Part shown: piece after piece, positions 5,581 through 40,535 of the stretch
Layout: every line of letters begins with the position of its first letter
Position numbering within the stretch: position 1 is the stretch's first letter
Assembly (NCBI GenBank): GCA_950295325.1
Contig: OX485809.1
Span: 30,504,001 to 30,568,000, forward strand
DNA: 64,000 nt
Origin: Polytrichum commune
Lineage: Eukaryota; Streptophyta; Polytrichopsida; Polytrichales; Polytrichaceae
Direction of reading: 5' to 3'
Notes under the pieces: model-generated
What the model was told of the DNA's origin: nothing
The model's input: the letters and a program-made list of their open reading frames with translations, nothing else
The model's database searches: none
Program-made: the position numbers and the translations under genes

Positions 5581-8230
5581 TTAGTTAATTCTACTGCAAA
5601 CCTTGCGAATCTCTCCTTGCTGTCCTGTAAGAACTGAAAGGGTTCCCATCTTCACAATTGCGGGCCCAAAGGCGGCTGTGAAGTTCTTCGGTGGCGATCC
5701 GGGAGCGAGTGCATAGGACTTCACCAATGAGGACGTTAAGTTGTCGTCCGCCATGTTTTGGTCGATTCTGAAGATTCCGTGGTGAAGAAGGATTTGCTTG
5801 TAATAGCTGTTGTCGAATTTCGCTATGGTGCCTTGGTCCAGTCCGGTGGTGTTTCCGAACCGTGAAGGGTTCGCCGCTTGGGGGCAGATCTTTCTCAATT
5901 GCACAACAAGTTTCAGATCCATAGAGGGATCAGGCTTTCCCGTGCCCAGAAAGTTCCATAGACGATCACTAAAAAGTACACAGTGTCCAACTCCCACAGT
6001 GTGTGCGCCTGCATCGAAGCAACAAACTCAGATTCACTAGTCTTTTTTATGAATACTTTTGCACTCAACTTTGTCTAAGAATCCTCAATAACATCGTCAA
6101 TCTTTATAAGAAGAGTGTTGAACGTGTGACCCGGATTCAAAAGCACATCAAAAGCCATAAAAAGAGAACACTCTGAAATTTTATACCTTAATCTGAGAAT
6201 ATGTGAAAAATTTGCGTCTCAAGGTAGGCTTTATCATAATCGCTTAAAAATTAATAGAAGTTTCCAATTGCCACTCTAGAAACGAAGACCCTGATCCTGG
6301 AAGAATTATTTATTGATTTTAAAAGGAAAGGAAGTGACATCACAAGGCTTAAGAATGTTAGGCTGCAGATTGGAAATGGAGATTTCGATTTCTGACATAG
6401 TATTTCAATCTAACCTTCCTTTTTCGGAAGGTGTGCCTTTTCAGGAAGGTTGTTGTCAAAAGAAATTGTGAAAATTAATAGGAGGGGAGTACGAGAGAGC
6501 CAATTACCAAGAAGAGTGACCATCTCTTCGAGAGAAAATCCCATCGTCTTGAAAATGATGAAGAGAGGCTTCATAGCCGAGGAAGGATTCGGCAACACCA
6601 CATTGATTTCCTCAGACACACGCCCATCCCTGCGTCCTGTTGGCACGTCATAATATAATCCACCGGCCTGCAATTATCCAACTCAAGCAAAATTTAGGAT
6701 CAGCTATACTCATGTGACGATTAGGATCATCAATACTCATCTGACGATAAAACAAATCGCTATCCACTTACTTAGCCCGATTTTGGGATGTGCAAATCAT
6801 CTTGGACTTAATCAATCTGAATTCCAGACAGATGGGGATAATGACCTACAATTACAACGGCGTCGCGAGTGGCAAGAGTAATGATGTCTGCACAAGACAC
6901 AACTCCTGGACACACTTTCTCCAGAGTAATCTTGGCGAGGTCGATCAAGTCGAGGCCGTGCAGTGTGAGATTTGGTATGGAGTCCATCTCCGCCGTGTTG
7001 TTCTTGGTGCTGTCGATCAGTATTGATGCATCACACCCCTGCATCATGCCACCCCCGAAAACCCAATTGTTTACACACAATTTCACTTATGCTGAGAAAC
7101 AATTACAGGTACTGCCTATCTAGGTTGATTCCGTCAACAATCTCCCAAAACCTATGTACTCATTCTCGTAATTCGGTCTCAAATGCAATTCTATGTGCTG
7201 GTCCATCGAATGTGGAGCCTTTTGACAAACAAATTGGTGATCCACAAATTGACAGAAACATATTAGTAGATGAAATTAGACATGTCCTAGTGAGAAATGG
7301 TCTAAAATTCTAGCTATTGTAATGGAGTCGTACAGATGCATCACACCCCTGCAAGCCACCTCGAAAGGAAAGTGTTGACACACAGTTTCACTTAAATATG
7401 ATAAGAAGTAATCATAAGTACTGCCTATGTAGGTTGATTCCGTCAATAACCCCCCAAAACGCATGACCTGATTCTCGTGATTCGGTAAAAACGCAATTCT
7501 GTGTGGTGGTCCGTTCGAAACTCTCCAGACTTTTGATAGACAAATCGATGATCCCAAAATCGACAGAAACATATTAGTCGGTGAAATTAGACAAGATCTA
7601 ATGCGAAATGGTTTGAGACTCGCGCTATTGACAAGAAGACTGTTTTCACAAAAAAGTCAGTTATGAGAAGCAATTACAAGAACTGCCTGGTAGGTTGATT
7701 CCCTCAAGAATCTCTTTACTCGCATGTATAGGATTTTGGCAATTCGCTCACAAAGGAAATTCTGTGTGGTGATCCGTCGAAATTCTCCAGCCTTTTGATA
7801 GAAAAAAGTGATGATCCACAAATTGACAGAAACGTTTTAGTTGGTGAAATTAGGCAAGTCTTGATGAGAAATGGTTTGAGACTCTAGCTGTTGATTCCCT
7901 ATTGACTATCCTTATAATTGAGTTGTAGGTCACCAAAAATCATGAAGTGTGCTCCGAAGATACACGTGTGTGGTGGTCTCTCACCGTTACAAAGCAGTCG
8001 TGGAAATGCAATCGCAAAAGACCCGGAACGATGGTCTTGTCCGCGGCAAATTTCTTGGAAGTGGCGTCTCTCACAATGTCCTCTGCTGCCGGACAAGAAG
8101 ATTTATAGAACCCCACCTTCAAACCAGTACTATTCACTCTCGGAAACTGGAATGCTTTCGCCCTACTAGTTCCATAGATTACCAACCACACCAAAACCAA
8201 CCCGGTTGCTGCAGCTCTGACCTGCCCCAT
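5581..8230 (-). CDS. Class III (secretory) peroxidase, four exons, 340 aa
   Basis: Haem peroxidase of the plant secretory class, oxidising phenolics with hydrogen peroxide in the wall or vacuole. Exons (minus strand): 8230-7985, 7038-6850, 6667-6508 and 6008-5581, totalling 1023 bp with all junctions in frame and GT-AG. This three-intron layout is the classic one for the family. The Met at 8230 was chosen over the upstream one at 8314 because it directly precedes a signal peptide ([10 protein letters not shown], cleavage near RAKA). Visible motifs are RLHFHDCF with distal Arg73 and His77, [21 protein letters not shown] and GAHTVG with proximal His201. The end is KVCSRIN. The cysteine pattern looks complete. 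Intron 1 is enlarged by tandem repeats carrying a decoy acceptor. The duplication breakpoint at 8342 is only 112 bp upstream of the start codon, so this copy and the one at 37774-40423 have different distal promoters. Confidence 0.93.
7025..7880. repeat. Three decayed tandem repeats in peroxidase intron 1
   Basis: TAGGTTGATT recurs at 7121, 7430 and 7691 within longer similar blocks of about 260-310 bp. Unit 1 starts inside exon 2: the 19 bases at 7025-7043, spanning the exon 2 acceptor, are repeated exactly at 7335-7353. The third unit lacks that part. Divergence between units shows the tandem expansion is much older than the 8.3 kb duplication. Confidence 0.82.
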
Positions 8231-8342
8231 GCTTCCTGCCCCAATCTGCAACTCAAGGCAGAGAGCTCCACAACACCACTCACTTCTGAAATGCTCAAAA
8301 GTGGGAATCCTCACTCAACCCTCACTCCACCCATGCATCGCC

Positions 8343-11868: not shown

Positions 11869-14318
11869 TACCCTTGCTGGTATATACATAAAATATACCC
11901 TTGCTGGTATATTTTATGTATATCATGTATCTTGTATATCAGAGGAGGTTATGGGCCCACCGTAAGAGATATTAGCATTTACATTGAAGTTTTATCTGTC
12001 TACATACAATGGATAAGAGAGAATCTGAGATTCGAGTGTTTGATGGAACTAAGTTTCCAGTCTGGAAGTTCTATATGGAACTCTGCTTTTCCACCAGAGA
12101 AGTGATGCCAATTGTCGATGGCACCATACCGCAACCAGGTGAAGATGCTTCAGAAATTGAGAAAGCAGCGTGGATAAAGGGAGATAATCTGGCCAAACAA
12201 TTAATAGGAGCGTCAGTAACTCTATCTGTACTAGAGAACCTTATCAATTGCACAACCGCAGCCTCTATGTGGTCTGCATTGTGTGCATTCTACCAACATA
12301 GATCAAAAGAAAACATCTATATGGTTCAGAATAGCTTCTATGAGTACAAAATGAACATAGGAGATTCCATCAATACTCATGTTAACAAGGTTATTAGCAT
12401 GGGAAATCTTTTGAAAGATCTGGGCAAACCAGTTGATGAGGACAGTATTATTACTAAGATAATATGTAGCTTACCTCCTAGCTACAATAGTATTGTCACT
12501 GCCTGGACTAACCTCCCTGCCGAGCAACAGACAGTTGCAAATCTTAAGGTTCGACTGCTACAACTGGAGAATCTCTTGGCGCTACAAGGCGGAGACCTCG
12601 CAGAAGACTCAGCATTCTTCACTCGCTCCAGCAAGATGCACTCACAGAACAAGAAGACAAATCATGAACCAAACAAGGAGTATATCAAGAATCTGAAGAG
12701 TCGCACTCGATGCTACAACTGTGGAGAACACGATCATTGGACAGCTGAATGTCCGCATCCGCGACGTGACAAAGATAAGTTCTCAAATCAAAAGAAGAAT
12801 AGACTTGATCGTAAACAAAAGTTTACAAGAGATAAACGGAGCAATGCATGTGCTGCTACATCTGAGCAAACTAATTCTGGCTCAAGTAACTCTGCATCAG
12901 AATCTGAACATGACGATTGTGCACTCATGGCACTAAGTGGATTGTCACACGCATTGAACGTCAATTTTGATAAACAAGCTTGGTATGCTGATTCAGGTGC
13001 TACTGAGCACATGACAGAACACCGTGACTGGTTTTCTACTTTTAAAGCCATACCATCAGGCACATGGCCCGTTGCCATTGCAGATGATAGCAATCTATGG
13101 GTGAGAGGCGTAGGCGACATCAACATTACAAGACTAATTGATGGTGTACACAAGAAGGGTGTTCTGAAGAAAGTGTTATTTGTACCTGACCTACGACGAA
13201 ATTTATTCTCAATCGGCCTTGCATCCAGAGCTGGATTCTCCTTTCAGACTATCAGGACGAAATGCGCTCTCTATGATGATTTTGGAGAAGGTCCAAAAGT
13301 ATTGGAAGGAGACTTAGTCGGAACATTGTACAAGTTATCCATCAGCCCTGTTCCTCCTGCATCAACAATGGACACTCAACCTGCAGATAGCCATCCATCT
13401 ACAGCTCTTGCTGTCACAACCCCACGTGACACAGAGTTAGTGCTATGGCATAACAGAATGGGACATGTCAACATTCATACTATTAAGAATATGAGTGCAC
13501 ATGACAGCGTCAAGGATCTTCCAATTCTTTCTCACAGCAAAATAATTCAAGTCTGTCCCGGCTGTGCTTTGGGAAAACAACATAAGTCGACATACTCTTC
13601 AAATCCACAGAAAGAACGATCGAAAATACCTGGAGAATTGTTGCACGCTGACTTATGCGGGAAGATGTCCATTCCTTCCTTAGGGGGTGCTCATTATTAC
13701 GTCTTAATCAAGGACGACTGCACCTCTTTCAGATTCGTTGCTTTTCTTAAAGCCAAGGGAGATACTATCAGGTTTTTCCTTAAGATCTTACGCTCTATTG
13801 AGCGCATAACAGGGAATTCAGTCAAGACTCTTCGAACAGACCGCGGCAAGGAATTTTGCAACACTGAATTTGATTTACTTCTTGAGAAAGAAGGCATCCT
13901 ACGAGAGACCAGCACATCCTATACTCCACAACAGAACGGGTATATTGAACGAGACAATCGCACCATATGTGAAGCAGCCAGATGCATGTTACATCTACAC
14001 AATATACCTCTGAAACTCTGGGCAGAAGCTGTTCACACTGCAGTCTACATTCTCAACCGAACAATCAACACTCAGGTAGGTTTCGTGACTCCTTATGAAC
14101 TATGGTTCAACACGAAACCTAGTGTTTCTCATTTCAAAACGTTTGGTACTCTTGCTTATATCTTTATTGATAAATCAAAGCGTACTAAATTTCAACCGAA
14201 AGGAAAGCGGGTTATATTTGTTGGCTACAGTGATACCAGCAAGGGTATATTTTATGTAAGCAAAATATACCAGCAAGGGTATATACCAGCAAGGGTATAT
14301 TTTATGATAGTAGGGTAG
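11869..14318 (+). mobile_element. Truncated Ty1/copia retroelement with inverted terminal motif clusters
   Basis: The element carries gag, protease and integrase but stops before reverse transcriptase and RNase H. No LTR pair is visible. Instead both ends carry copies of a 16-bp motif: TACCCTTGCTGGTATA at 11869 and 11896 on the left, and its reverse complement at 14234, 14268 and 14284 on the right. The 14234 copy is part of the coding sequence (SDTSKG of integrase). At 11935-11945 the bases TATCAGAGG resemble part of an initiator-tRNA-Met primer-binding site, a possible relic of the 5' region. Boundaries are inferred from the motif clusters, with the right end set at the stop codon. Confidence 0.8.
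12009..14318 (+). CDS. Copia gag-protease-integrase polyprotein, truncated (769 aa)
   Basis: Open over 2.3 kb without a frameshift. A copia-type gag region comes first, then a CCHC zinc knuckle at residues 235-248 (CYNCGEHDHWTAEC). The aspartic protease site DSGA follows at 328-331 and the GAG-pre-integrase HHCC element at His481/His486 and Cys516/Cys519. The integrase core has Asp548, Asp611 and Glu647 (D-x35-E spacing between the last two). The normal copia order would continue into reverse transcriptase, but the frame runs into the repeated AGCAAGGGTAT cluster after the conserved GYSDTSKG and ends at 14318. The element therefore cannot copy itself alone. The intact frame suggests recent origin or trans-mobilisation. 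Confidence 0.93.
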   Translation: MDKRESEIRVFDGTKFPVWKFYMELCFSTREVMPIVDGTIPQPGEDASEIEKAAWIKGDNLAKQLIGASVTLSVLENLINCTTAASMWSALCAFYQHRSKENIYMVQNSFYEYKMNIGDSINTHVNKVISMGNLLKDLGKPVDEDSIITKIICSLPPSYNSIVTAWTNLPAEQQTVANLKVRLLQLENLLALQGGDLAEDSAFFTRSSKMHSQNKKTNHEPNKEYIKNLKSRTRCYNCGEHDHWTAECPHPRRDKDKFSNQKKNRLDRKQKFTRDKRSNACAATSEQTNSGSSNSASESEHDDCALMALSGLSHALNVNFDKQAWYADSGATEHMTEHRDWFSTFKAIPSGTWPVAIADDSNLWVRGVGDINITRLIDGVHKKGVLKKVLFVPDLRRNLFSIGLASRAGFSFQTIRTKCALYDDFGEGPKVLEGDLVGTLYKLSISPVPPASTMDTQPADSHPSTALAVTTPRDTELVLWHNRMGHVNIHTIKNMSAHDSVKDLPILSHSKIIQVCPGCALGKQHKSTYSSNPQKERSKIPGELLHADLCGKMSIPSLGGAHYYVLIKDDCTSFRFVAFLKAKGDTIRFFLKILRSIERITGNSVKTLRTDRGKEFCNTEFDLLLEKEGILRETSTSYTPQQNGYIERDNRTICEAARCMLHLHNIPLKLWAEAVHTAVYILNRTINTQVGFVTPYELWFNTKPSVSHFKTFGTLAYIFIDKSKRTKFQPKGKRVIFVGYSDTSKGIFYVSKIYQQGYIPARVYFMIVG

Positions 14319-15188: not shown

Positions 15189-18100
15189 TTACAGCTTGTC
15201 CTCGTACTCTGACAAGGGTGTGATCTGGTCCTTGAGACCCTTTCGTTTCCTGATCTCAGTCACAAGGGTCCCGGACTGGGTGGTGCTGTCATAGGGATCG
15301 CTGTTCAACATCTCCCAATGATCAAACACACACTGGGGGAATGCTTGTCCGGAGGTTGCTGCACGAAGTGTGCCTGAGAAACCAAAAGACTCGATGACTG
15401 GCAAGTACGCCTTGATGTTGTACAGAGGAGTTCCTGGCCTTTGGACTTCCTCAAACACATGCCCACGCTTCTGGTTCAGCACTCCGTAGATACCTCCAAG
15501 AGCACCCTCTGGAGCCTGAATCTCCACAAGGTACACTGGCTCCAACAAACGTGGCTTGGCAGTCAACATAGCTGCGTACATCACACGCCTTGCTGTGGGG
15601 ATAACCTGTCCACCTCCACGATGGATGGCATCAGCGTGGAGAACCACGTCACAGACCTCAAAGGCAATACCTCTCATGTTCTCCTCCGCCAAGGCACCCT
15701 CCTTGGTGGCCCACTGGAATGCGGCAACCACAGAATCCTTGATTTCGTTCAGGTACTGCACTCCCTTACACATATCAACCACCATGTTGGGTCCAGTGGT
15801 CTCAGGTCCGAAACACCAAATCTTCTTGGCTAGGTCTTTGTCCCATCCGAACTCCTCTGCCAAGATCTTGCTCCTCACCTTGGGGTCGTCACGGGGGCCA
15901 ATGCGACCATCGTCAATGGCCTCGGGCAGACCTTCCTCCAATGGCCTAGCCTCAAAGTACAGCCTGTTGTGCTTATTGGGGGACTTGCTCATCACTGTCC
16001 TGCATGATTTCTCCAACACTGTCTCGCGGAAAGACACCACTGGGTCAGAAACCACGATCTCAGCACCTCCCATGAAGTCGTCCTGAAGATCCTTCAGACA
16101 GATTTCCAAATGCAACTCTCCTGCTCCAGCGATGATGTGCTCTCCGCTTTCCTCGATCGAACAGATAACCATAGGGTCAGACTTGGCCAAACGCTTCAAT
16201 CCTTCCACCAGCTTGGGCAAATCTGATGCCACCTTGCACTGGACTGCGACACGCACCACAGGAGACACTGAGAACTTCATGGCACGAATGGGATGAGCGT
16301 CCACCTCCTTCTCATTCGTCAAAGTTGCATTCTTCGTAATGAATTGATCAAGTCCCACCATGGCCACTGTGTTACCGCAAGGCACATCCTCCACTGATTC
16401 TTGACGCCTTCCCATCCAGATGACGGTCCTCTGGACACTCTTGGTGTACAGATCCTTCTTTCCTCCGGGCACGTAGTTGGGTCCCATGATCCTGACCTTC
16501 AATCCGGTGGAGACCTTTCCAGCGAACACACGTCCAAAAGCAAAGAACCGACCCTTGTCGGGAGCGGGAATCATCTTCGACACATACAACATCAGAGGAC
16601 CATCGGGGTCACAGTTCCTGATGGCGTTCGCATACTGGTCATCCAAAGGACCCTCGTACAAGTTCTCAACCCTGTACCTCTGGGCAGTTGCCGGAGAGGG
16701 CAGGTGAAAGATCATCATCTCCAACAAAGCGCTAGAGGCAGGAAGCCATGTCTGCATGACTCTCTTCATCAAAGCCTTTCCAACCAAGTCCTTTTCCTCT
16801 CCCTTAAGGGAGCAGTTCAACTTTGCCATCATGGGCCACAGTTTGTCCTTCTGGTCATTCATGCAGATGTTGATCACCTGCTTGATGGGGTTGTACACGA
16901 ACTGAACAAAACCACGCTGGCAAGTGGGAGAACCAGTATTCTTTGATGTCCACTTCTTCGTGGCAGGGTCAAAGTAATTCTCACCCCACAGCCTTTCCAT
17001 CATCTTCTTCTCATCCACACCAAACTTGCCTGCGTACATCTTTGCGAAGTTCGTCAGGGTGAATGCCCATCCGTGCAGACCGGCGGAGAAAGCAACAGTT
17101 CCCTTCTCTGGGTACACTTGCACATCTCCCAAAAGTGCATCCTCGTAAGTGGCCATGATAACGTTGGCGTTCTCGATCACACGCTGGAATGTCTGGTAAG
17201 CCTCCTCACCCTCCACTTGCAGCTCGAGGAAACACCTGTCCATCTTATTCACGGTAAGCACCGGCCTAATCCTCTCTCCCAAAGCTTGTCGAAGCACGGT
17301 CTCTGTCTGGACACAGACACCCTCCACACAGTCGACCACCACCAACGCACCATCGGTAATACGCAGAGCTGCTGTCACCTCCGAAGAGAAATCGACGTGC
17401 CCGGGTGAATCGATCAAGTTGATCAGGTAGTCATGGCCGTCCTTCTGACCATGGTAATCCTTCAAAGACTCCACAGTCATCTCGTAATACAGCGAGATAC
17501 CGGTAGATTTGATGGTAATACCACGCTCGGCTTCATCGGCACGAGTGTCAGTAAGACGGACATCTCCGGCGACCTCTTGGGCAATGATACCCGCAGCAGC
17601 CACGAGAGAGTCAGTCAAAGTAGACTTACCTGAAACAGCAGGGGCAAACGAGTTAAAATATGGTTCATTCCACCATCATGAGCACACAGTCAGCATACAT
17701 TACGTAATTGGCCATAAATTCTAGTTACAACTCATAAATTACAATCTTACGAAAGTCCTCACAAAAATTCAACGTTGTTATTAGCACTTCAAGATAGAGA
17801 ACATATGCTCCACACCAACCGTAGAAAAATCCATTAGAAATTAGATACAATAGTTGACTAGGTTCAGTGCTATTTCTTCACTGCAAATGATTTATTCCTT
17901 AACACCTACAGAGTACACACATTCAGCGGACACTTAATGCTGGGACTTTCAGGGAGAAACAAAAACTGGGAACCTCTGTTTTCCCCTTCTTTAATTACAC
18001 TGAACCACCCCCTTGCTAGAACAGATCTAGTATCTTCTCAAAGCCTACGAGCAACACAGGCTCGTGGCTCTTGGAAAAGACATCAAAGAGAAATTTAGTG

Positions 18101-25740: not shown

Positions 25741-25957
25741 TGTTTCATATCCAAGGAGAAGTGGACTAGTCCCATGCGTATATCCTATTTGAGATCCTAC
25801 GATTCTCTCAGTTTTTGAGGTGGACAAAGAAGGTCCCAAAAGTTTCACCCAACCTTCAAATAGGCTCCAATACACGACGAGCTAACGAGCTTGTAATAGA
25901 ATTTTTTCTCAAAGGAGGGTCAAACCCAAGGTTTCATACCTCTTTGTACTAGGTAGC

Positions 25958-26071
25958 GGTCATCTACAGAGTGGCTACCGGGTGTAGCAGGGGAGCAGAA
26001 CCTGCCGAGTCGCGTCAGCGACGAGGGAGGTTCTGTTCACCTGCTACACCCGGTAGCCACTCTGGATGACC
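25958..26071. other. 114-bp near-perfect palindrome upstream of the recombinase gene
   Basis: Outer arms GGTCATC (25958-25964) and GATGACC (26065-26071) enclose arms of about 40 bases. The first 24 of these (from AGAGTGGCTACCGGGTG) pair without mismatch and the rest with three mismatches. The apex GTCGC-GTCA-GCGAC itself forms a small stem. The stretch is GC-rich in AT-rich flanks and ends 198 bp before the start codon at 26270. It would extrude as a cruciform or fold as a strong RNA hairpin if transcribed. No second copy was noticed in the window. Confidence 0.92.
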
Positions 26072-26269
26072 TGCTGCCATACGTAGCCGATGAAGGATCT
26101 CAAAAATAGTTACCTGCCTATCCAGTTACTAATAGGTACCTTCCTTGTTGGCGGGAGGTAGGAATTTCAAAAGTGTCACGCCGAGCTATCTCCAACACTT
26201 CTATTCTCAGTTTAGGCTTTTTGTGCTCTGTCAGTTCTGTCTTTGTTGTTTGCCAATCTTGTCGCTGTC

Positions 26270-29200
26270 ATGGAAGGTAATCAAGAGGATGGTGACGTTG
26301 AGCAACATCAGCCTATGCCGTCATTCAAGTTGTTTAGTGATGACGATGAGTTGGAGAGGCCGTTAGAAGTTGGTACTTCAAGGGGTAGAAAGAAGGGACG
26401 TTCTGGCACCAAGTTTCGTGGATCTAGATCTGGAAGGCGCAGTCGAGGTCGAGGACGAGGACAAGCTCCTGTGCATCGTGATTCACACGGTGTCGAAGAG
26501 ATCTATGTTCCATCAGAAACATCTTTGTTGAATTCATCACAGTTTGCTTGTGGTGCAGATGGCGTTTTGTTGAGTGATAGCCATAATGTTGTTTCAAGTG
26601 TGCAAACTGTTTGTATTGACGCACCTCCATCCTCAGATGTTCGTGTTGATGGTGTTGATTCGAACATTGTGAGAAGCAACACTATTCCCAATGTTTTGAA
26701 TGCACCAGTGTTTGTGAACACTACTGTGTGTGCAGATCTCACAACTGCTGCATCCGTAAATGCTACCTTCATAAATGGGACAAGAAGTGATGGCAATCCA
26801 AGCTCTAGTTCTGTACATCTTGGGGAGGTTCCAGTGCATGCTAGTGAGTTTCCACTCCAAGATAGATCTTCACAGGACCTTGTTGTGCATGTGGCACATG
26901 CGATTGTTCCATCTTCCTCGGAATTTCTGGATTTAGATCAAGAGGATTTCAATAGTGTCTAAAATGGCGATGAATCAAACAGTTACCGAAACGAGAGGTG
27001 GTGTATCAATAGATTTAATGCTTGGCGTAGGCACATGAATATCCCCACTGATATCCCCGTGGAAAAGATTCCACTACAGGAACTTGGTGTGATTCTTAGC
27101 AAGTTCTTTTTGATGGTTTGCAAGGTTGATGGCAACAAGTATCCAACCGAGTCCATCAAAAACCTCTTGATGTCTTTCAATCGCATAATTCTAAGAGAGC
27201 AGAAAACTCGTATCAATCTGACTTGGAATGAGGAGGTTGAGTTCAATATTCAGAGGCATCCGTGGTTTATTGGTGCTTGTCGCGCCGTACAAAAGGCAAT
27301 GACCAAAAGTAAGGATCTAGGGGCCAATAAACCTCGGAGGAAAGTCGATCCTCTAACTTATGAGCAGGAGAAGTTAATCTTGGCCCATCCTTTACATCAG
27401 GTTACATCTGCTCATGGGATTCACAAGAGAATGGCCTTTTACTGTTTTATTGTCTTCCTCATCAGAGGTAACACTGAATTGTGGAAGGTAATGGTCAAGG
27501 ACTTCACAATTGAAGTGGATCAACGTGGACGTGAGTTCTTGAAGTAGGTGTCCTCTCTTCAGAATCCATCAATTTTTAGAATCTACAAGTGCCTTTGTTG
27601 TTCTATATATGTGCACTAAAGTTCTGAGTATGAGCGTAATATTATTCTCATTTGAATGGCCTTTGGTCTTGAGGTTCAGAATGATGCATGACTAACAACT
27701 TCAGTAATTAGGTGTCTACGGGCCTGCTCGGAGTCTCAAACATTTTCGGTAGTTTGAGTATGATCATATTAACAATATTGATATGTTGTGCAGGTACGAT
27801 GAGCGTACTTCAAAGAACCACAAAGTTACACTCAGCAGGTTCCAAGAAGAACACTTCAGGAGGCCAGTAGTTTCTTTCGATCCTGATGTAGTAGCCACAT
27901 TTCGAGCTCTTTTGTCTCATATGCCAACCAACTCAGAGCATGGTCATCTATTTCTTGCTGCAATTGTCAATCCACGTTCTAATATTTGGTTCAGAAGTGG
28001 CATCAATGTTGGTGAGTCTGCTATGAGAAACTGGATGCGTCAGATGTGTAAGACAGTAGGTCTAGTTGGTGATTTTACTAATAAATCAGGGAGAGTGACT
28101 GCAATTTCACGCATGTCAGCAGGTATGGTCCCTAGAAAAGCAATCGCTTCAGTTACTGGTCATCGTGATGAAAAGACTCTTGAAAGGTACGATAGAACGT
28201 TGCAATTGCAACAAAACGCTGCCCAAGCTCTTTGTAGGGAACCTTACGATGAGGATGGTAATCCTCTTACATATGAAGACCATTATCGCAGGCAAATGGA
28301 GCATTACCATGCGCATGAAAATGTGCTAGAGGATAGTACATCAGAACTTCCTCCCTCTCATGGAAGTGGCATCCAACAAGGTTTTGGTGGCCGACTCCAG
28401 ATCCGATCTGCACCGGACCAGGTTGAGGAACAAAATTTTGTTTCTGAAGCTTTTGAGGAAGATGTTCATAATACGAGTGAAAATGATGATGAAATTGTTG
28501 TTTGTCCTGAAGTTCAAGAGTGTGGCCAAAATTTAGACGATCCTTCTATTCTCCCACCAACAAAGACTAGGAGATTTGATTCCACTTCGCATGTCAGATT
28601 CCAGGTTCCTCCTACTACAATTCCCCATGCAAGTGCCTTTCGTCCAAGTAATGTGCACAGTGCATTTCGTCCAGTAGTTTCTTGCCGACCTCATGTGCCG
28701 CCTCCAATATACAGACCTCAAGCAGCTCCATTGCAGAGGCAATTTTATACCCCTTCAAGGCCTTTTAATCATGTGTACAAACCATACGATATCTATCATG
28801 ATAGGGTTTTTGCTCCTCCGCCGAGGCCTATGGCTCCTTATCAACATGTTCAGTCTATTGGTCAGGCAAATCCCGGTAACATCAGGACATGTTGCGGTAA
28901 CATACCATATGTTGTGACACCTAATACATCTACCCCGGAAGCTGTGTGGTTAGAGTACGTTAAAGAATGCTGGAATTATGAATGGACATCTTTTGAGAAA
29001 GAAGATTTCAGTCATCACATCCCGGCTACTACTGTTGATGCTGTAAATTTACCGTGTGTCCAAGCTGTTTCAAGTGGTCAATGTGCAGAAACTAATGATG
29101 TTAATCAGGTCATGCAAGATGCTGAGAGGAATAACCAACAAGTTGGTGAAGGAGTTGCAGTATTGAATCCCGTGGCATTGCAACAAGTTGATGTCCCTAG

Positions 29201-29339
29201 GCAAGCTGATGTTGGTCGAATTCAGTTCCATGCTGGAGTTCACCACCACTACAATATTGTTTTAGGCGATCCCATCTCTTTGTCAAGAGTTTTGGAGAAT
29301 ATATTCCAACGAACTGGACGTGATGGTTCAGGGAATTAG
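26270..29339 (+). CDS. Crypton/DUF3504-type tyrosine recombinase, two exons, one in-frame stop
   Basis: Predicted exons are 26270-27543 and 27794-29339 (intron with GTAGGT donor and TTGTGCAG acceptor, joining FL-K-YDERTSKNHK in frame). Residues 38-64 are a basic R/G-rich tract. Codon 231 (26960-26962) is TAA, after which the same frame continues. An N-terminal SAM-like/core-binding segment follows (RWCINRFNAWRRH, then KFFLMVCKVDGNKYPTES). The catalytic domain has FLIRGNTELW with Arg399, TNKSGR with Lys522 and Arg525, TGH with His548, and the nucleophile candidate Tyr557 in ERY, nine residues after the His. This is the R-(H/K)xxR-H-Y layout of tyrosine recombinases, with Lys in place of the usual first His of box II. 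A proline-rich tail (residues about 690-790) and a hydrophilic end follow. Domain order matches Crypton transposases and animal proteins domesticated from them. Whether it is active, domesticated or newly dead is unknown. Confidence 0.82.
26960..26962 (+). other. In-frame TAA inside the recombinase reading frame
   Basis: The frame before (from 26270) and after (through 27543) is the same. The 24 codons between the stop and the next Met (27035) already contain conserved N-terminal residues such as RWCINRFNAW, so translation from 27035 would lose part of the domain. Confidence 0.85.
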
Positions 29340-29437
29340 TGCAGGAAGATTAGTGCAAACCCAGTGCAGGTATGCGATTGAATTAATTGTGTTGGCAACT
29401 TTGAGCATGGGTTGATCTGTAGCTAATTCCTCTGCCT

Positions 29438-29545
29438 GCATTAATTTGTGCAATGATCTGTAGCTGGCTGTTCATGTGCCTGCCTTACTTTGTTTTCGAT
29501 CATCCTCCTGGATATAGATTGCACCCTAGCTTGATAATTTCTGAA
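29438..29545 (-). repeat. Inverted repeat, left member (pair with 30718-30812)
   Basis: Read on the minus strand it encodes ARVQSISRRMIENKVRQA. The right member on the plus strand encodes ARVQSISRWMIVCKLTQA. At DNA level the two agree over roughly 95 bases with many substitutions. They may be fragments of a repeated gene or the arms of an element. I do not recognise the peptide. Confidence 0.65.
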
Positions 29546-30717
29546 GCTAAATGTGTTTTTGGTGTGAATGGTTAGCATATTTTGTGTTTTGTTTTGTTTC
29601 GAATAATCTGTTTTGTTCCGGAAGTCTTTTTCAGCAATGTAATGTTGAGTGGAACTTCGAATGTATTTGCAGGTGGGTACATTGTCATGGGCTCCCGCAC
29701 CTCTGGTAAGACTGAGGTGGCTACCACCCGAGCTACATGAGACCAATTTGTTCCTTAGAATACAACAACACGTCTTCAGGTGTCATTCTGGAGGTCATTC
29801 TGTGAACGAACCTCTGAATTTGAGCAGGATATGAGGTGCTTAGCTCATACTGGAAAAGAGGCCTTACCTGCCTCATGCTTTTAATCCATTTGGTAGAAAG
29901 AGGTGTTTGAATATAGTGCATTAATGCACTATTCATTTGCAAGCACCCACCCGATGGTTTTGGAAGGTCCTAGAGCTAGAATAGGCTGTCAATAGATGTT
30001 GCATTAGACCCCTAACCTGTGAGGTTGATTGGACCTTGCTCCAGTCCAAGTTCCTTGGATCAACACTAGATTCATGCAAAAGAACACATAGTAGAGGAGA
30101 TGTTTGTGCTTTATATGGCATCGATCTTGAGCATCCAAGATGTCAAATGGTGGCTTGTGCACTCTCATTGTCAATTCTGAAATCATTCATCAGATGCTCA
30201 ACAAAAATAAAAGCAGGGGGAGAAGTATGTAAGCACCCCTTGTCGTGTCTCCTGGTAAGTGTTGGGTTCTATTTGTCTCTGAATTGTCAATTGATCTGGT
30301 ATTAGTGTAGTTGTACATCACTTTTTTGGTAGTTAACCAATTTGAAAATCCATGGAATGATTCACAAGAGGTTTAGCCTATTGGCTAGCAAACTGTACCA
30401 TTGGTTTTTGTGTACCTGAGCTGTTTGATTGAGGAAAGGCATACAAAAATTCTTGCATACTGCTGTGGAACCTTAATGTGAAGAGGTCACCTTTTTGCAG
30501 CAATTCCCTATTTGATGGTGTTGGAACATGTGCAGATAAGATTTAAACCATTCTAGGTTCAATAGCTAATGCAATTGGGTAGGGTCTATATGATTGTTTA
30601 AAGTGAGAATATTTACTTCGACCCCTTATAACTTTTGCATCTCACCTTGATTCTGAAACTTGCAATGACAATCTCCAAGCTGACGGATCAATCATTCCAA
30701 CAGATTTCACCAGCTGA

Positions 30718-30812
30718 TGTGGCTAGGGTGCAATCGATCTCCAGGTGGATGATCGTATGCAAATTAACGCAAGCACTGAAACAGCTAGCTACCTACAGAT
30801 CAATACACAAAT
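30718..30812 (+). repeat. Inverted repeat, right member (pair with 29438-29545)
   Basis: See the left member. The plus-strand frame stays open to about 30890 (…SIHKFDSPGTLH…), longer than in the partner. Confidence 0.65.
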
Positions 30813-31328
30813 TCGATAGTCCCGGCACACTTCACCGCAAAAAGTTCCAAAATCAAAGGCAGGGTGCAAGACGATCTCCAGAAGCACGATGAGCTACAAC
30901 GGAGAGAAAGAGAAAAGATATTTGAAAATGGATTCCCGCCCATTTGGGGCTAATTGGTGTAATAATCTAGTCCCACATGGTGAAAAGGGTAGGTAAGTAG
31001 GTCGGAACAAGTTAGGTAGGTCGCAACACAGTAGGTCGCTATGGTCTTGGACCGTCCAGTGGAGAGCCAATGGGACTTCGCCACATCAGCTTCTATATCT
31101 CCAGAATCGGCTACGAGGGACTGTACAGATAACTATATTGTGTTAGTAAGCTTCAGATCTTTCCTCACAATCAAGGATTTATGTAGATGGGAGCTTATGT
31201 TACAGCCCATAATCGTCAAAAAATGATTATTTTCTTAGTTTAGGTAGAGCTCACAACGGTTTTACACTATTTACAATAAATTGGAACTTTTCTATGAGAT
31301 GCTGAAGTTCATCGTTAGTGTGCAGTTT

Positions 31329-32193: not shown

Positions 32194-32998
32194 CTCAAAG
32201 TGGACATTTCATGATGCTCAATATTGCTGCACATCTGTTCAAACTTGGTGTGTGAATCATTATGAAATGTATGACGTAAAAATAGTAAAAAACCCTCACT
32301 TTCAGGAAATGAGTTGACAAATCTCCACACTACTCATCACATTTTCAGACAATTCTACCTAATCCCTGCCAGTCGTTTGATGATTCTTGCATAGAACTGC
32401 AATATGCAGAGCATGGGCAGAGAACGGTATTCAAATACTACTAAGATTCTCCGAGTCAGGAGCTTTGAACTTGCTGGAGGTGTGCGTGAATTTACCTAGT
32501 TCTCAAGCAACCCTACATATGTTAAGTAATGACATTCATCGTCCTCCGATACTCCAATTCTGGCCCATTTTGGATCTTCCTCATTATCAACGGTCTGCAA
32601 ATGTTCTGGAAGGACGACCGATACCAGAACAAAAGTGCCGTTGGAATCAATTTAGAGACTCACTCAGGGTTGAGATATCATTGACATTCTTAATATTTGC
32701 CCTCATCGATGGCAGCAGCGGATCGACGGCGTCCATGAAGCTTCGGCAGCCCATGCGGAGCTCAATCCGTTCACCAATAAAAATAAAAATAATCTTATCC
32801 AAAACTTTTGACGAGGCTCTTATCATCCTTCCCTTCGCTTCGGGGAAGGCCTGCTTCCCTTCAGCTTTCTCTGGAAATCAAAATCCTCACCACCTACCTC
32901 CCAAAGTGTGTATGCAGATCGCACACTCGCGGCAGCTCAAGATTTCCAAGCACTACTGCGTGGCGGGTTGTGTGTTTAGCAGGTTAAGTGTACCAGCC

Positions 32999-33301
32999 AT
33001 GGCATCCATTGTTGCACTTCAAGCTGCATCGGTGGTCACATTGGCACTGATGTCGTTGAAGAAAGCCGCCATGCCAGGATCATTATCCTCAAAGGTTTCA
33101 TCTCTCAGCTTGAAGCGGAGAGTGAACGAGAAAGCTTCTCGGGGACCTAAGGTGGTGTGCGCAGTGGGAGATGTCTCCGCCGAAGGCACCAACTACTTGA
33201 TTGCAGGCGACATAGCCATCGCCTTGGTAGGGACAGCCTGACCTATCCTGTTCTCTCGCAAGGATTTGTGCCCGGAGTGCGATGGTGCAGGCTTCGTCCG
33301 C
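32999..33301 (+). pseudogene. Plastid zinc-finger-like fragment with in-frame stop, copy B
   Basis: Identical to 806-1108, including the in-frame TGA (33239-33241) before the CPECDGAG half-finger. The shared stop shows that the lesion predates the duplication or was copied with it. Confidence 0.42.
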
Positions 33302-33505
33302 ACGACCGCAAGACCCTCGCTGCTGTTGGGCCTCGTTCCGCCCCCGATCGACACCAAATCGGGGCGGTCACGCGGCCGCTGGGAGCGGCAGCGCGAGGCG
33401 GGAAGGCGCATGGCGATGGTGGCGAGCGGGGCCGCCCTGCCTTCGATGATGGTGGCTGACGATGATGTGCGGTGTCGGTGACGCGCTGGCTCGCCGCGAG
33501 CGTTC

Positions 33506-33633
33506 GGGGAACGTGGGGAACGCAGGACGACGTGGCTGGCTATGGCCTCGAGCTATGGGGAACGTGGGGAACGCATGACGACGTGGCTGGCTATGGCCGC
33601 GAGCTATGGGGAACGTAGGACGACGTGGCCGCT
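33506..33633. repeat. 51-bp minisatellite, copy B
   Basis: Same unit number and same internal contraction as at 1313-1440. Confidence 0.85.
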
Positions 33634-33893
33634 TCATAGGGCCGGCATTTCTGGACGGCACTTCAAACCTCCTCTTCAAATATTTGGGTCATTGTAAATT
33701 ACATTGGTACTAGGGCGATTTTATCTAGTTGTTAAGGTTTGAGCATGGTATATACATCTAAATGGTAGCAATTTTTTTTTATATCTCTGTATCTTATTTT
33801 TATTGAAAATTAATAATATCCTCATTATAGATACCGAAACGATATCAAAAGAAGACACTATCATGCCAACATTGGTTTACACTATTATAAATT

Positions 33894-33907
33894 GGGGGGG
33901 GGGGGGG
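33894..33907 (+). repeat. Homopolymer tract of 14 G, copy B
   Basis: Same length as in copy A, although such tracts normally change length quickly. Confidence 0.9.
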
Positions 33908-34393
33908 ATCAAGCTCAAATAAACTTCAAAACCATGTAGTCTTGTTAATCAAGAGCATTATTATGGAGGAGGAGTTAATGACTCAAGTTTATGGGAAGGG
34001 AATTGTATAATCCCCCACACAGTATGTTAAAATGACCATAAAGATGCATCGTGTGATCACATGACCTATCAAAATTTGAAAATCCATCATACACATTAAG
34101 AGGAGCAAGGTATCGGCTTTGCTTCCCTCTTTCTTTACATTTAAGCTATGCATCCTCTTTCGATACTACCGTAAGTACCTTTTACCACTTCAGCACTAAT
34201 TAAACTATTTGTAGGAAAACCGAAACTTTTGGAAATTGGATCTTTAAAACCTCAAAATTTAATGTGGAATAAATGTCATTTTTCATTAAAGCCATAATTT
34301 CCGCATCTCAAAATAAAAAAACATAATAATCATTTGCCTATAAATGGTAAATAGACAAAATGGTAAAAATACTACAACATCCACTTAGAACTG

Positions 34394-34483
34394 GCTGGGG
34401 CAAACCAACCCATACATTGGTTCCTTGGATGCAAGGGTTTAAGCATCCAACAAAGAACGAGTGTATGGGTTGGTTCACCCAAA
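34394..34483. other. Imperfect foldback, copy B
   Basis: Identical to 2201-2290. Confidence 0.5.
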
Positions 34484-34732
34484 TCCTTAGAGCTTTGCCA
34501 AACGTGTGGTTGTTTAACTACTGTAGTGTGTGGTTAATTTAACAATCCCCTACAAAATTCTCTCACCTTGACATATCCACCAAATACCATCAATTTTTGA
34601 CACCCTCGGATAGGTTCTTTGATACCTTGATTGATATTAATCAATACCATACCAAAACTCGTGCAAAACCCCTCCAAGGTATTGCTGTGGGGCTTAGGGT
34701 TTAGGAGAGCTTCAATCGGTAATGGGATTGTG

Positions 34733-35235
34733 AGAAGTGAGAGACTGGGCAATGTGGTCGATGCTGGAATCGAAAGGGCGGAACGGCGCAGAGAAGGCCG
34801 ATCAGAGGAGGAGGCACGGGCGAAAGTAGAGCAGTGTGAGAAATTTGTGGACAAAAGGCTCAAACCTGACCTGGTGGCTGTAATTGGAGTGCTTCAGTGT
34901 TAGCGCAGCAGTAAATCTATGCCGATCTCGCAACCAACACGAAGATGCTGCAGAAGCTGAATTTGACGAAGCTGAGGATGATGATCAACATGGGGTCCGC
35001 GATGTATGAGCAAGCTGAAGTGCCGGATTCTACCAGAATCTTTGTTGACAATAGTGTTAGGGTTTCATGGCGGTGTTTACTGGGGATGAGGCCATCTGGT
35101 TTATCATGGCCAAGGACAAGGTTCTCAGTAACCAGATAGAGCAACACACACCTCACATTTGCGAGCATTAAGGCGCAGATCAAGCTTGTCGGCGAGGGTA
35201 TTCGAGAATTGATGAACATTTCTAACCAGCGATAG
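34733..35235 (+). pseudogene. UXT: UXT processed pseudogene, copy B
   Basis: Same frame changes and in-frame TAA as at 2540-3042. Confidence 0.72.
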
Positions 35236-36260
35236 CACGACTCATGCGAACAATCTAAATTTCTCTCTCAACAATGAGTTTGGCCCTCAATGAACCGAAA
35301 TGAAATAGGTTGCTCATAATTCGCATTCAAACACTACCAACTACCTCCGAGGATTCACCACAAGTGGAAAGAAATTATTGATAGTGTACGCAAAACAAAC
35401 AATTGGAAAATTCATAGGGGACTAACTCCCAACGAAGAATTCCATTGACTTGAAAACGAGAACTCTAATCTCTATTAGTTCAATCTGCTCCAATTAAAAA
35501 AGGTGAGTAAGAAGAGAAATCTCATTTTCTGGCTTCGGAGCTGGATACCCAAATATCATCAACATGCCCACATGCAGATCGCTCATTCTTTTGCAGCGCA
35601 ATCACATGTCAAAATTATGAGCTTCTATCTTGGATCTCCCGACTTCGTGGTTTTAAGCCCTCCAGTGAAGTGGGAGCTTGTTATTGGGTTCTGTAGCAGT
35701 TGGATTACTCAGTTGAAGTTATAAATTTCAAGCTGGGGAGGATGGCAGGTGGTAGAATGATTCTGGTCATCCCCCTCTATAGCTTGCTCATTTGTTAATT
35801 ATCAACATATTGAACCCACATTTCGTGTTGTGATTTTAGGTTCAGTAACTTAAGACAAAGAAAAAAACGTCTCTCTAGATAAGACTTATCAATGCTTTCA
35901 CCTCAATTTGTAATGTATTGATACTCTCAGACGTGCCCACTTGTGGAATTCATTATTAACATCAGTTATGAAAGGGTTGGAATCATTTCTAATTTCTGAA
36001 TCACTCACTGCTTATGATGCCAATCAATTTTTGCAAGATCGTATACAATATGTTATTTCCACATACAGCTGGCTGCTATGATGATATACGAACATTAGCT
36101 TGTCCGTATATTGTACACATGATGTAACCCAGTTTTCTTTATAATGTCGCCCCTCCACTTGTGCAGACACACACTTCTTCCTCTGGTGTGCAATTGGAGA
36201 CCTTGTGTCAGCAATTTTGGATGTCATCGTAACGACATCTTTGCATCAGATGCAGGACAC

Positions 36261-36269
36261 CTATAAGAG
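36261..36269 (+). promoter_or_regulatory. Putative TATA box of STIG1-type gene, copy B
   Basis: CTATAAGAG 102 bp upstream of the start codon. The whole proximal promoter is inside the duplication, so both STIG1-type copies share it. Confidence 0.45.
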
Positions 36270-36370
36270 CTTGCAGCTCCCTCACAATGCTCCAGTAAAG
36301 GATTGAGGGACTGCCCCAAGGGCTGAGAAAGACACATTTTAGAGCTAAGATTTCTGACTGGATTGATAAG

Positions 36371-37069
36371 ATGGAGAAAAGGTGTTTACAAGTCTCAACA
36401 GTAGTCATCCTGTTGGTGTCTGTTGTGTGCTTAAAGGTCGCATTTGGTGAAGATGAATCCATCCCATCTGTAGCAGCAAGGGATGCACCATCGAGGTTCA
36501 CTTTGAGCCGCTACATGCTAACTCAGCGAAAGCAGGCAAAGAGCGACTCTTCGTGCGATTCTCGCAGCGACTGCAAGTATTTGGGATTCACCAAGCCCAG
36601 GTGTTGCAACGGCCAGTGTGTGAACGCAGCCACAGATGACAACCACTGCGGCAGTTGCAACAACAAATGTAAGAAATCTGGAGCTAAGTGCTGCAAGGGC
36701 AAGTGCAAATTGCTCTCTGGTAGTGATCGATCAAATTGTGGTAGATGTGGCACCAAGTGCAAGTCTGGCTATGATTGTTGCCAAGGTATGTGCAGATTCG
36801 TGGCGGGAGGTGACCGGTTGAACTGTGGGGAGTGCGGTCGGAAGTGCAAGAAAGGCCACATGTGTTGCAAAGGGCACTGTAAGAACACGAGTGGCAATGA
36901 CCGCTTTAACTGCGGTGGATGTGGGAAATTGTGCAGTTTTGGTGCAGATTGCTGCAAAGGAGCGTGCAAAAGTGTCCATGGAAGTGATTCTTCCAACTGT
37001 GGCGGGTGTGGGAAGAAGTGCAAAGCAAGGTCGCAATGCCACCTCGGCATTTGTGGTTACAATGACTAA
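36371..37069 (+). CDS. Secreted STIG1-type cysteine-rich protein, copy B (232 aa)
   Basis: The predicted protein is identical to that at 4178-4876: signal peptide, linker and five cysteine modules at a 29-residue period. More than 2 kb of its upstream sequence is shared with the first copy, so identical expression would be expected unless more distal sequence or chromatin differs. If the duplication is real, this is a two-gene cluster of identical STIG1-type genes. Confidence 0.87.
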   Translation: MEKRCLQVSTVVILLVSVVCLKVAFGEDESIPSVAARDAPSRFTLSRYMLTQRKQAKSDSSCDSRSDCKYLGFTKPRCCNGQCVNAATDDNHCGSCNNKCKKSGAKCCKGKCKLLSGSDRSNCGRCGTKCKSGYDCCQGMCRFVAGGDRLNCGECGRKCKKGHMCCKGHCKNTSGNDRFNCGGCGKLCSFGADCCKGACKSVHGSDSSNCGGCGKKCKARSQCHLGICGYND

Positions 37070-37773
37070 TTTAATACTCATTCGATCCAAATCCTCAAGC
37101 TCAAGGTTTGTAATGCTTAGATTACGGCATCCATTGAAGTAGAAAAGGTAGCTATTAATAATAAAAGAGGAACTACATATGAGGGTACATCAACTCAAAA
37201 CCTGGTCGTTTACTTCTGCATGGAGGGAACGACGGTCACGAATTCTAGTCGGCCAGCCGGCGTTATTTGTTTCTTCTTTCTTTTCGGCAATTAGCGAGTT
37301 GCCGCATGCCACAGTGCAGAGCATTATTTGTATTGTTTAGTTTGTTCAAAAGTAGTAAAGCTACGATCAATACTGCACTGAGGAAATGACCTGAACAATC
37401 GCTGATTTTCCAACTGAATACTTTGGAGCGTGCTCAATGTAAACCACCATCAGTCCGAATGGGAATACCAGCGAAACTAGAGTGTCAGACTCATATTGCT
37501 TAATTTCCAGTACATTATTTCTGTACATATGTTACAAGCTGTGGGTTTGCAATTAGTAGCTCCAATGTCGATGAACCAACGCGATTTCATCAAATCTCGT
37601 TGTTGATGTCCGAGACTGAACCTTCCCTCTTATTGTCACGACATGGTGACATGGAAGTAACCATCTAGATTGGTCAGTGTCGTCATGCCGAGCTGATGGG
37701 ATAATAACCCTGATATCATTGATTTGCTCATACAGAATATACACAAAGCGTACAGGATGAAGACTAAGTTAAG

Positions 37774-40423
37774 TTAGTTAATTCTACTGCAAACCTTGCG
37801 AATCTCTCCTTGCTGTCCTGTAAGAACTGAAAGGGTTCCCATCTTCACAATTGCGGGCCCAAAGGCGGCTGTGAAGTTCTTCGGTGGCGATCCGGGAGCG
37901 AGTGCATAGGACTTCACCAATGAGGACGTTAAGTTGTCGTCCGCCATGTTTTGGTCGATTCTGAAGATTCCGTGGTGAAGAAGGATTTGCTTGTAATAGC
38001 TGTTGTCGAATTTCGCTATGGTGCCTTGGTCCAGTCCGGTGGTGTTTCCGAACCGTGAAGGGTTCGCCGCTTGGGGGCAGATCTTTCTCAATTGCACAAC
38101 AAGTTTCAGATCCATAGAGGGATCAGGCTTTCCCGTGCCCAGAAAGTTCCATAGACGATCACTAAAAAGTACACAGTGTCCAACTCCCACAGTGTGTGCG
38201 CCTGCATCGAAGCAACAAACTCAGATTCACTAGTCTTTTTTATGAATACTTTTGCACTCAACTTTGTCTAAGAATCCTCAATAACATCGTCAATCTTTAT
38301 AAGAAGAGTGTTGAACGTGTGACCCGGATTCAAAAGCACATCAAAAGCCATAAAAAGAGAACACTCTGAAATTTTATACCTTAATCTGAGAATATGTGAA
38401 AAATTTGCGTCTCAAGGTAGGCTTTATCATAATCGCTTAAAAATTAATAGAAGTTTCCAATTGCCACTCTAGAAACGAAGACCCTGATCCTGGAAGAATT
38501 ATTTATTGATTTTAAAAGGAAAGGAAGTGACATCACAAGGCTTAAGAATGTTAGGCTGCAGATTGGAAATGGAGATTTCGATTTCTGACATAGTATTTCA
38601 ATCTAACCTTCCTTTTTCGGAAGGTGTGCCTTTTCAGGAAGGTTGTTGTCAAAAGAAATTGTGAAAATTAATAGGAGGGGAGTACGAGAGAGCCAATTAC
38701 CAAGAAGAGTGACCATCTCTTCGAGAGAAAATCCCATCGTCTTGAAAATGATGAAGAGAGGCTTCATAGCCGAGGAAGGATTCGGCAACACCACATTGAT
38801 TTCCTCAGACACACGCCCATCCCTGCGTCCTGTTGGCACGTCATAATATAATCCACCGGCCTGCAATTATCCAACTCAAGCAAAATTTAGGATCAGCTAT
38901 ACTCATGTGACGATTAGGATCATCAATACTCATCTGACGATAAAACAAATCGCTATCCACTTACTTAGCCCGATTTTGGGATGTGCAAATCATCTTGGAC
39001 TTAATCAATCTGAATTCCAGACAGATGGGGATAATGACCTACAATTACAACGGCGTCGCGAGTGGCAAGAGTAATGATGTCTGCACAAGACACAACTCCT
39101 GGACACACTTTCTCCAGAGTAATCTTGGCGAGGTCGATCAAGTCGAGGCCGTGCAGTGTGAGATTTGGTATGGAGTCCATCTCCGCCGTGTTGTTCTTGG
39201 TGCTGTCGATCAGTATTGATGCATCACACCCCTGCATCATGCCACCCCCGAAAACCCAATTGTTTACACACAATTTCACTTATGCTGAGAAACAATTACA
39301 GGTACTGCCTATCTAGGTTGATTCCGTCAACAATCTCCCAAAACCTATGTACTCATTCTCGTAATTCGGTCTCAAATGCAATTCTATGTGCTGGTCCATC
39401 GAATGTGGAGCCTTTTGACAAACAAATTGGTGATCCACAAATTGACAGAAACATATTAGTAGATGAAATTAGACATGTCCTAGTGAGAAATGGTCTAAAA
39501 TTCTAGCTATTGTAATGGAGTCGTACAGATGCATCACACCCCTGCAAGCCACCTCGAAAGGAAAGTGTTGACACACAGTTTCACTTAAATATGATAAGAA
39601 GTAATCATAAGTACTGCCTATGTAGGTTGATTCCGTCAATAACCCCCCAAAACGCATGACCTGATTCTCGTGATTCGGTAAAAACGCAATTCTGTGTGGT
39701 GGTCCGTTCGAAACTCTCCAGACTTTTGATAGACAAATCGATGATCCCAAAATCGACAGAAACATATTAGTCGGTGAAATTAGACAAGATCTAATGCGAA
39801 ATGGTTTGAGACTCGCGCTATTGACAAGAAGACTGTTTTCACAAAAAAGTCAGTTATGAGAAGCAATTACAAGAACTGCCTGGTAGGTTGATTCCCTCAA
39901 GAATCTCTTTACTCGCATGTATAGGATTTTGGCAATTCGCTCACAAAGGAAATTCTGTGTGGTGATCCGTCGAAATTCTCCAGCCTTTTGATAGAAAAAA
40001 GTGATGATCCACAAATTGACAGAAACGTTTTAGTTGGTGAAATTAGGCAAGTCTTGATGAGAAATGGTTTGAGACTCTAGCTGTTGATTCCCTATTGACT
40101 ATCCTTATAATTGAGTTGTAGGTCACCAAAAATCATGAAGTGTGCTCCGAAGATACACGTGTGTGGTGGTCTCTCACCGTTACAAAGCAGTCGTGGAAAT
40201 GCAATCGCAAAAGACCCGGAACGATGGTCTTGTCCGCGGCAAATTTCTTGGAAGTGGCGTCTCTCACAATGTCCTCTGCTGCCGGACAAGAAGATTTATA
40301 GAACCCCACCTTCAAACCAGTACTATTCACTCTCGGAAACTGGAATGCTTTCGCCCTACTAGTTCCATAGATTACCAACCACACCAAAACCAACCCGGTT
40401 GCTGCAGCTCTGACCTGCCCCAT
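37774..40423 (-). CDS. Class III peroxidase, copy B (340 aa)
   Basis: Exons on the minus strand are 40423-40178, 39231-39043, 38860-38701 and 38201-37774. Protein, introns and the tandem repeats in intron 1 are the same as in the gene at 5581-8230. The signal peptide, distal Arg73/His77 and proximal His201 are all present. Only 112 bp upstream of the start codon are shared between the copies. Beyond 40535 the sequence is unrelated, so distal promoter elements must differ. This makes the pair a candidate for diverging expression with an unchanged protein. Confidence 0.92.
39218..40073. repeat. Tandem repeats in peroxidase intron 1, copy B
   Basis: Same three-unit structure and decoy acceptor as at 7025-7880. 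Confidence 0.82.
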
Positions 40424-40535
40424 GCTTCCTGCCCCAATCTGCAACTCAAGGCAGAGAGCTCCACAACACCACTCACTTCTGAAATGCTCAAAAGTGGGAA
40501 TCCTCACTCAACCCTCACTCCACCCATGCATCGCC

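Follow-up and report, generated by a model that had tools for sequence, protein, structure and literature searches.

A Crypton-like plant transposon whose joined ends resemble an integron attC site

Introduction

Tyrosine recombinases act on two inverted binding sites arranged around a centre of 6–8 bp (PMC3212892; PMC2727003). Among transposons with such enzymes, Cryptons are described as having a tyrosine recombinase as their only recognised enzyme, with a proposed circular form and with non-autonomous derivatives (PMC3212892). The hosts listed for CryptonF, CryptonS, CryptonA and CryptonI in Table 1 of that account (Kojima & Jurka, 2011) are fungi, animals and stramenopiles, with no plants in the table. 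Cryptons are treated in general terms in PMC11630846, and a 2022 review of land-plant elements (PMC9033089) does not use the word Crypton and keeps DIRS elements out of land plants. DIRS-type elements, including the ALOG-related DIRS1-like element (PMC3537659), are likewise eukaryotic and carry a tyrosine recombinase, but as described they also encode a reverse transcriptase. Starships, with their DUF3435 captain (PMC12506042), are a further group of eukaryotic tyrosine-recombinase elements and are described as very large, cargo-rich, fungal and bounded by direct repeats.

In bacterial integrons, two antiparallel cores make up the palindromic attC site of a cassette. When folded, an attC strand resembles a duplex in which the central spacer remains unpaired; recombination takes place at one core, a single strand is exchanged and the product is resolved by replication (PMC2727003).

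Here, we describe an element that combines features of Cryptons with ends resembling attC. The original prediction was of a DUF3504-type Crypton tyrosine recombinase gene in a plant genome, located in a stretch of 64 000 nucleotides (the window) that lies on contig C7 of a 407.8 Mb assembly. The window also contains a STIG1-like gene (Pfam E = 1.8e-28); on the evidence of this gene and of the original prediction, the genome is probably that of a plant. Full-text searches for Cryptons in mosses, bryophytes, algae or land plants, or for Cryptons together with palindrome, attC or hairpin, returned no such element among the top-ranked matches; the literature searched excludes most subscription papers, Repbase and bioRxiv, and the absence from print of such a plant element is not shown by this result.

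Results and discussion

The recombinase gene

Frames on the + strand are open over 26216–26962, 26963–27547 and 27753–29339 of the window, in agreement with the coordinates predicted earlier. Joining 26270–27543 to 27794–29339 gives a translation in which Arg399, Lys522, Arg525, His548 and Tyr557 fall exactly at the residue numbers originally assigned to them and in which the segment RWCINRFNAW occupies residues 243–252. The gene is made up as follows.

26270–27543, + strand: exon 1, encoding an R/G-rich N-terminus, a core-binding-like part and the box I arginine, Arg399
26960–26962, + strand: in-frame TAA at codon 231 of the window copy, absent from the three other copies compared
27544–27793, + strand: predicted intron of 250 bp, with donor GTAGGT and acceptor TGTGCAG↓G
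27794–29339, + strand: exon 2, encoding the catalytic half (Lys522, Arg525, His548 and Tyr557) and a proline-rich C-terminus

Splicing is predicted from these signals; an equivalent intron of 251 bp is present in copies L018 and L020, and a pattern check of the copies did not find the donor pattern in copy L019. The earlier description of the gene as near-intact has to be tempered, as the window copy carries the stop at codon 231.

The K-x-x-R, His and Tyr residues are invariant in an alignment of four sequences, one from each of the families described below, and the box I Arg is kept in 4/4. Box II begins with Lys in all four, and the replacement of its first His by Lys, noted at first as a peculiarity, is therefore a family trait. 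These residues, which constitute a catalytic set of the R-H-R-Y type, together with integrase profile matches identify the product as a tyrosine recombinase. Exon 2 matches the PHROG integrase profile phrog_1 with E = 2.2e-9, whereas its match to Pfam Phage_integrase (E = 0.003, 17.8 bits) lies under the curated cut-off of 27.1 bits, as do those of family III (1e-5) and family II (2.5e-5); the family IV pieces gave no Pfam match. Searched against PDB sequences, exon 2 alone gave only weak matches (E of 0.97–2), a profile of the four sequences reached the integrase 3nkh at E = 4.9e-4, with unrelated proteins as the next matches, and a profile of the N-terminal half gave no match. Single-sequence structure predictions for two pieces from the window were of low confidence (mean pLDDT of 48 and 39). 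Viral contigs yielded 67 pattern matches, none of which was a relative.

The assignment to the DUF3504 type found no support. PF12012 was unmatched in Pfam scans of nine protein pieces, and a search of the genome for this domain gave no match, but is uninformative, as the 14 control genomes gave none either. The GCR1_C domain of the CryptonF group was likewise absent from exon 2 and its C-terminal part in Pfam scans. For the proposed core-binding-like segment, the position of RWCINRFNAW was confirmed and the profile support is weak: the nearest animal Crypton-gene profile, QRICH1, matches this part with E = 0.02 (15.4 bits compared with a cut-off of 30.8).

Extent, copies and families of the element

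Rather than standing alone as a host gene, the recombinase gene forms the core of a mobile element that is present in several copies. The boundaries of the window copy were obtained by alignment with copies at three other loci and from two ungapped empty sites.

25946–31114, + strand: whole transposable element, family I copy, 5169 bp
29587–30953, + strand: 3' segment whose scanned frames gave no recognised domain, shared with copy L018 and with other DNA in its place in copies L019 and L020

Further family I copies are located at C7:38.12M, C6:38.46M and C6:44.09M, with protein identities of 92–100% and with flanks at the junctions that are unlike each other; partial copies are present on C1 and C2. 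An additional copy (L017), 32.2 kb upstream of the window copy, belongs to a regional tandem duplication and is therefore not an independent insertion. The duplication, at a spacing of 32 193 bp (window 1–8342 and 32194–40535), doubles both the element and a STIG1-like gene, and its identity is 100% for the portion that falls within the window and 99.96% for L017; it could be a recent event or an assembly artefact.

The genome contains at least four diverged families, of which families II–IV are 27–57% identical in the aligned recombinase parts. Family II is represented by L025 and L026, family III by L024 and L027 and family IV by L028, L029 and two more copies.

The tyrosine recombinase is the sole recognised enzyme of the element. 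No frame of more than 145 residues other than the recombinase reading was found in the window element or in three copies, and once the gene and intron are set aside, the remaining sequence of about 2.1 kb contains no long frame. Pfam scans of seven stretches (six 3' frames, four from the window and one each from L019 and L020, and the C-terminal part) gave only DUF5737 at E = 0.071, which is at chance level, and no reverse transcriptase, RNase H or DDE transposase was found in the frames scanned of the window element and the copies. This layout agrees with the Crypton-like plan originally proposed, and on its sequence features the element is best filed as Crypton-like: it has the recombinase-only plan of Cryptons, but differs from those described in PMC3212892 in its plant host, in having neither GCR1_C nor a DUF3504 match and in carrying a long split palindrome at one end in place of the 4- or 6-bp direct repeats found at both ends of fungal-type Cryptons (4–6 bp in general). 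Animal Cryptons have been reported without terminal repeats.

The 3' part of the window element also contains inverted arms (29443–29530 and 30722–30813; 82–85%), perhaps those of a nested element.

Structure of the ends

The terminal features of the window copy are listed below.

25946–25952, + strand: left terminal core GTACTAG; the same or a near core is found at the left end in all four families
25952–26078, + strand: imperfect palindrome with arms 83% complementary (inner arms 25967–26013 and 26018–26064)
26083–26091, + strand: segment B, GTAGCCGAT, 9 nt in family I and complementary to the right terminus
31106–31114, + strand: right terminus, ATCGGCTAC, the reverse complement of segment B

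The palindrome folds with a predicted energy of −117.2 kcal/mol, compared with −81.6 kcal/mol for the lowest of 395 random stretches of the window. All four families have the same end plan, in which the left end consists of the core GTAYTAG, a palindrome and segment B and the right end is the reverse complement of B. The palindrome measures 127 nt in family I and 78, 101 and 116 nt in families II, III and IV, the family III ends being those of L027 only (the ends of L024 were not found), and B is 9 nt in family I and 24–30 nt in families II–IV. In blastn comparisons the ends show no similarity between families, with the exception of one 37-nt stretch in the palindromes of families III and IV; over this stretch L027 and L028 are 81% identical in palindromes that are otherwise unlike.

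With the right end placed directly in front of the left end, as on a circle, a single hairpin runs through the junction in 6/6 representatives, which cover the four families (two each for II and IV), with z scores of −7.9 to −19.7 relative to 100 dinucleotide shuffles each. The pairing is kept in 98.7% of pair cells in 27 distinct family II sequences, 99.4% in seven of family IV and 98.6% in four of family I, and in only 23–49% when one partner is slid by 1–3 bases, a comparison that is favoured by the derivation of the hairpin from the same sequences in which the pairs were counted. Covariation is thin, since just three pairs show two Watson–Crick types, and hairpin-templated repair could keep the arms complementary.

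A different arrangement is seen at L031 (bases 201–420; C1:28596565) and L030, where a head-to-head palindromic fragment of the family I left end lies 9.3 kb from a left-end copy and one flank, in inverted orientation, is common to both. L030 was left out of the analysis, as no right end was found for it.

Target site and junctions

The host sequence at the junctions of the window copy is as follows.

25943–25945, + strand: TTT of the host next to the left end (target consensus TAT↓G)
31115, + strand: host G at the right junction

Junctions were compared in 46 non-duplicate insertions with both junctions available. Four copies were left out of this set: L060, L068 and L073, which are without 1–3 nt at the left end, and L064, a tandem duplicate of L063. 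L017 (as a tandem duplicate), the family IV copy at C2:64.88M (left end located), L080 and L081 were also outside the analysis. The last three bases of the left flank are T (36/46), A (40/46) and T (38/46), and the right flank starts with G in 45/46 insertions, followed by T in 28/46. The complete target TATG is present in 27/46, against a background of 0.0045 (0.45%) on both strands of the window. At the junctions, only TA-G is common to target and right end.

Empty counterparts of the insertion sites were found for several copies. For the window copy, the joined flanks align ungapped with two copies of a repeat, over 137 and 132 bases (93 and 92% identity), and a third candidate, 80% alike, is also ungapped at the junction. 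Five more insertions have diverged empty counterparts, of which those of L056, L065 and L072 are ungapped at the junction, that of L079 has a five-base gap a few bases to the left of the junction and that of L046 has a one-base gap at the junction. The gap-free sites imply that insertion takes place without target duplication and, in the close cases, without loss. The host repeat hit by the window copy (25876–25945 and 31115–31184) has 429 related candidates at a first look, 40 of which were scored.

The core is found on one side of the insertions. It is complete at 45/45 left junctions scored, a count that holds partly by construction, as left ends were located by the core motif and the three copies 1–3 nt short were set aside. 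None of the 40 family II matches that were scored lacks the whole core, since on the left they begin at base 1–4 of the query, within the core. On the other side, 0/46 right junctions carry the core after the right end. In the 35 insertions where a target T can be distinguished from an element C, all have T at the left and C at the right, with none showing the reverse. A wider search for the right end followed by the core, allowing up to three mismatches, found 57 places and no exact match; the sole place among them with an intact core is the left end of a second copy directly behind a first copy.

Two minor features of the junctions may be mentioned. The right terminus of L069 and L070 is TTAT and not TTAC, which gives the impression that the element took target bases with it, and at C2:9663870–9663895 a family II left end directly follows the right end of another copy, in the manner of a cassette array.

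Short copies

Most of the family II copies examined are far shorter than the window element. Scoring of 40 of its 223 candidates gave 34 copies of 267–279 bp, five of 299–358 bp and L026; the sequences of 30 of the 34 short copies and of all five middle-length copies were taken for family II. In family IV, a search with both ends found five elements of 255–265 bp that hold both ends. Pattern counts for family II, which cover short and long copies alike, gave 163 left ends that carry the core, along with 212 palindrome–B stretches, and none in reversed-pattern controls. Family II ends are thus present at about 160–210 places, and nearly all of those examined are short copies without the recombinase. 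The median difference of 26 short copies from their majority sequence is 1.5%. These copies are too short for the recombinase gene and have therefore probably moved in trans, by means of the enzyme of the long copies.

Proposed mechanism of integration

The joined ends of all four families, as they would meet in a circle, show the anatomy of an attC site: a palindrome with two antiparallel cores and a crossover at one of them. According to the account of integrons in PMC2727003, the palindrome is split by the crossover, the cores are antiparallel, one core is used and the spacers are non-complementary; the spacers here are GTAYTAG and, in family II, CGGAC. The elements differ from integron cassettes as described there in that they carry their own recombinase, insert at many genomic TAT↓G sites and have the palindrome at their left end. 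The boundary triplets are TAC/GTA in families I–III, unlike the AAC/GTT of cassettes, which occurs here in family IV only. We prefer a folded single-strand model on the basis of this correspondence (one arm from the right end with B, unlike spacers, a second arm at the base of the palindrome and a crossover where arm and spacer meet).

We infer the following route. The tyrosine recombinase would cut out or copy out the element as a circle, in which the right end would meet the left end and, being the reverse complement of B, would rebuild one long palindrome split at the crossover point. One strand would then fold into an attC-like hairpin of two paired arms with the GTAYTAG spacer unpaired between them. 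The recombinase would exchange only this folded strand with a TAT↓G target, at the boundary between arm and spacer, and replication would complete the insertion of the circle without target duplication.

These observations are best explained, with a probability of about 0.5, by a Crypton-like plant transposon in which a folded, attC-like site undergoes recombination on one of its strands. The enzyme family, the structure of the ends, the preferred target, the seamless and one-sided junctions, the multiple copies and the short derivatives are well documented by the sequences, from which the circle, the folded strand and its exchange are deduced. The broader proposition, that a lineage of eukaryotic transposons moves in the manner of integron cassettes, is the first such and has amplified well over 100 short copies in a plant, is put forward tentatively and with slightly more reserve. 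Should single-strand folding be used, a eukaryotic transposon would, unusually, share a mechanism known from bacterial integrons. In this plant, Crypton-like elements are both recent and abundant, and the rule by which they insert is apparent from 46 sites, several of which have an empty counterpart, so that Crypton-like integration becomes directly testable.

The main rival, which we regard as possible although on balance doubtful, is an ordinary Crypton whose double-stranded circle undergoes two-strand exchange with TAT↓G, the one-sided core being produced by biased mismatch repair and the palindrome serving only as a set of binding sites for the recombinase or as a hairpin with a regulatory role. 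Target and right end do have TA-G in common, and the 7-nt spacer of families I–III lies between inverted arms, as would suit standard sites with centres of 6–8 bp (PMC3212892). The short arms beside the spacer agree at 6/7 positions in family I, 7/7 in family II and 5/7 in family III, but only at 1/7 in family IV, so that the arms required by this explanation are good in two families, fair in one and absent in the fourth; nor does it need pairing that continues through the crossover. Two-strand exchange between unlike centres would create a heteroduplex, from which both junction classes are expected with an overlap of 6–8 bp; the distinguishable insertions all belong to one class, and the core is absent from every right junction. 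This count bears on left ends recognised by their core, and the 49 palindrome–B stretches beyond the 163 cored left ends could include copies without one. A very short overlap, instead of a single-strand step, could also give a one-sided core.

A copy-out process biased to one strand, of the kind seen in bacterial SE elements, is an unlikely explanation. One strand would be circularised while the donor stayed intact, and the palindrome would serve replication of the circle and not recognition. One-strand circle formation has been described for a Vibrio element with a tyrosine recombinase (PMC9345347), and this process would also account for the one-sided junctions and the high copy number, but the att sites at the ends of SE-6945, as reported in the same source, showed no attC-like inverted repeats.

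The resolution of the joined palindrome into hairpin ends by a protelomerase-like enzyme is highly improbable: protelomerase does act on palindromic junctions (PMC3558466), but the insertions are seamless, have one preferred target and show no sign of hairpin ends. A domesticated host gene descended from an old Crypton, as the intron and the extra N- and C-terminal parts might suggest, can be dismissed almost entirely, and is rejected for the window copy, in view of copies of 92–100% identity with defined ends at several loci with unlike flanks and of the in-frame stop. Two other candidates were rejected, a DIRS-type retroelement because no reverse transcriptase was found and a Helitron because the ends and the target are wrong for such an element.

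Other coding regions of the window

Apart from the element and the STIG1-like gene, the window contains a Copia-type gag-pol frame and an elongation factor G/2-type frame (11988–14318 and 15189–17675, respectively).
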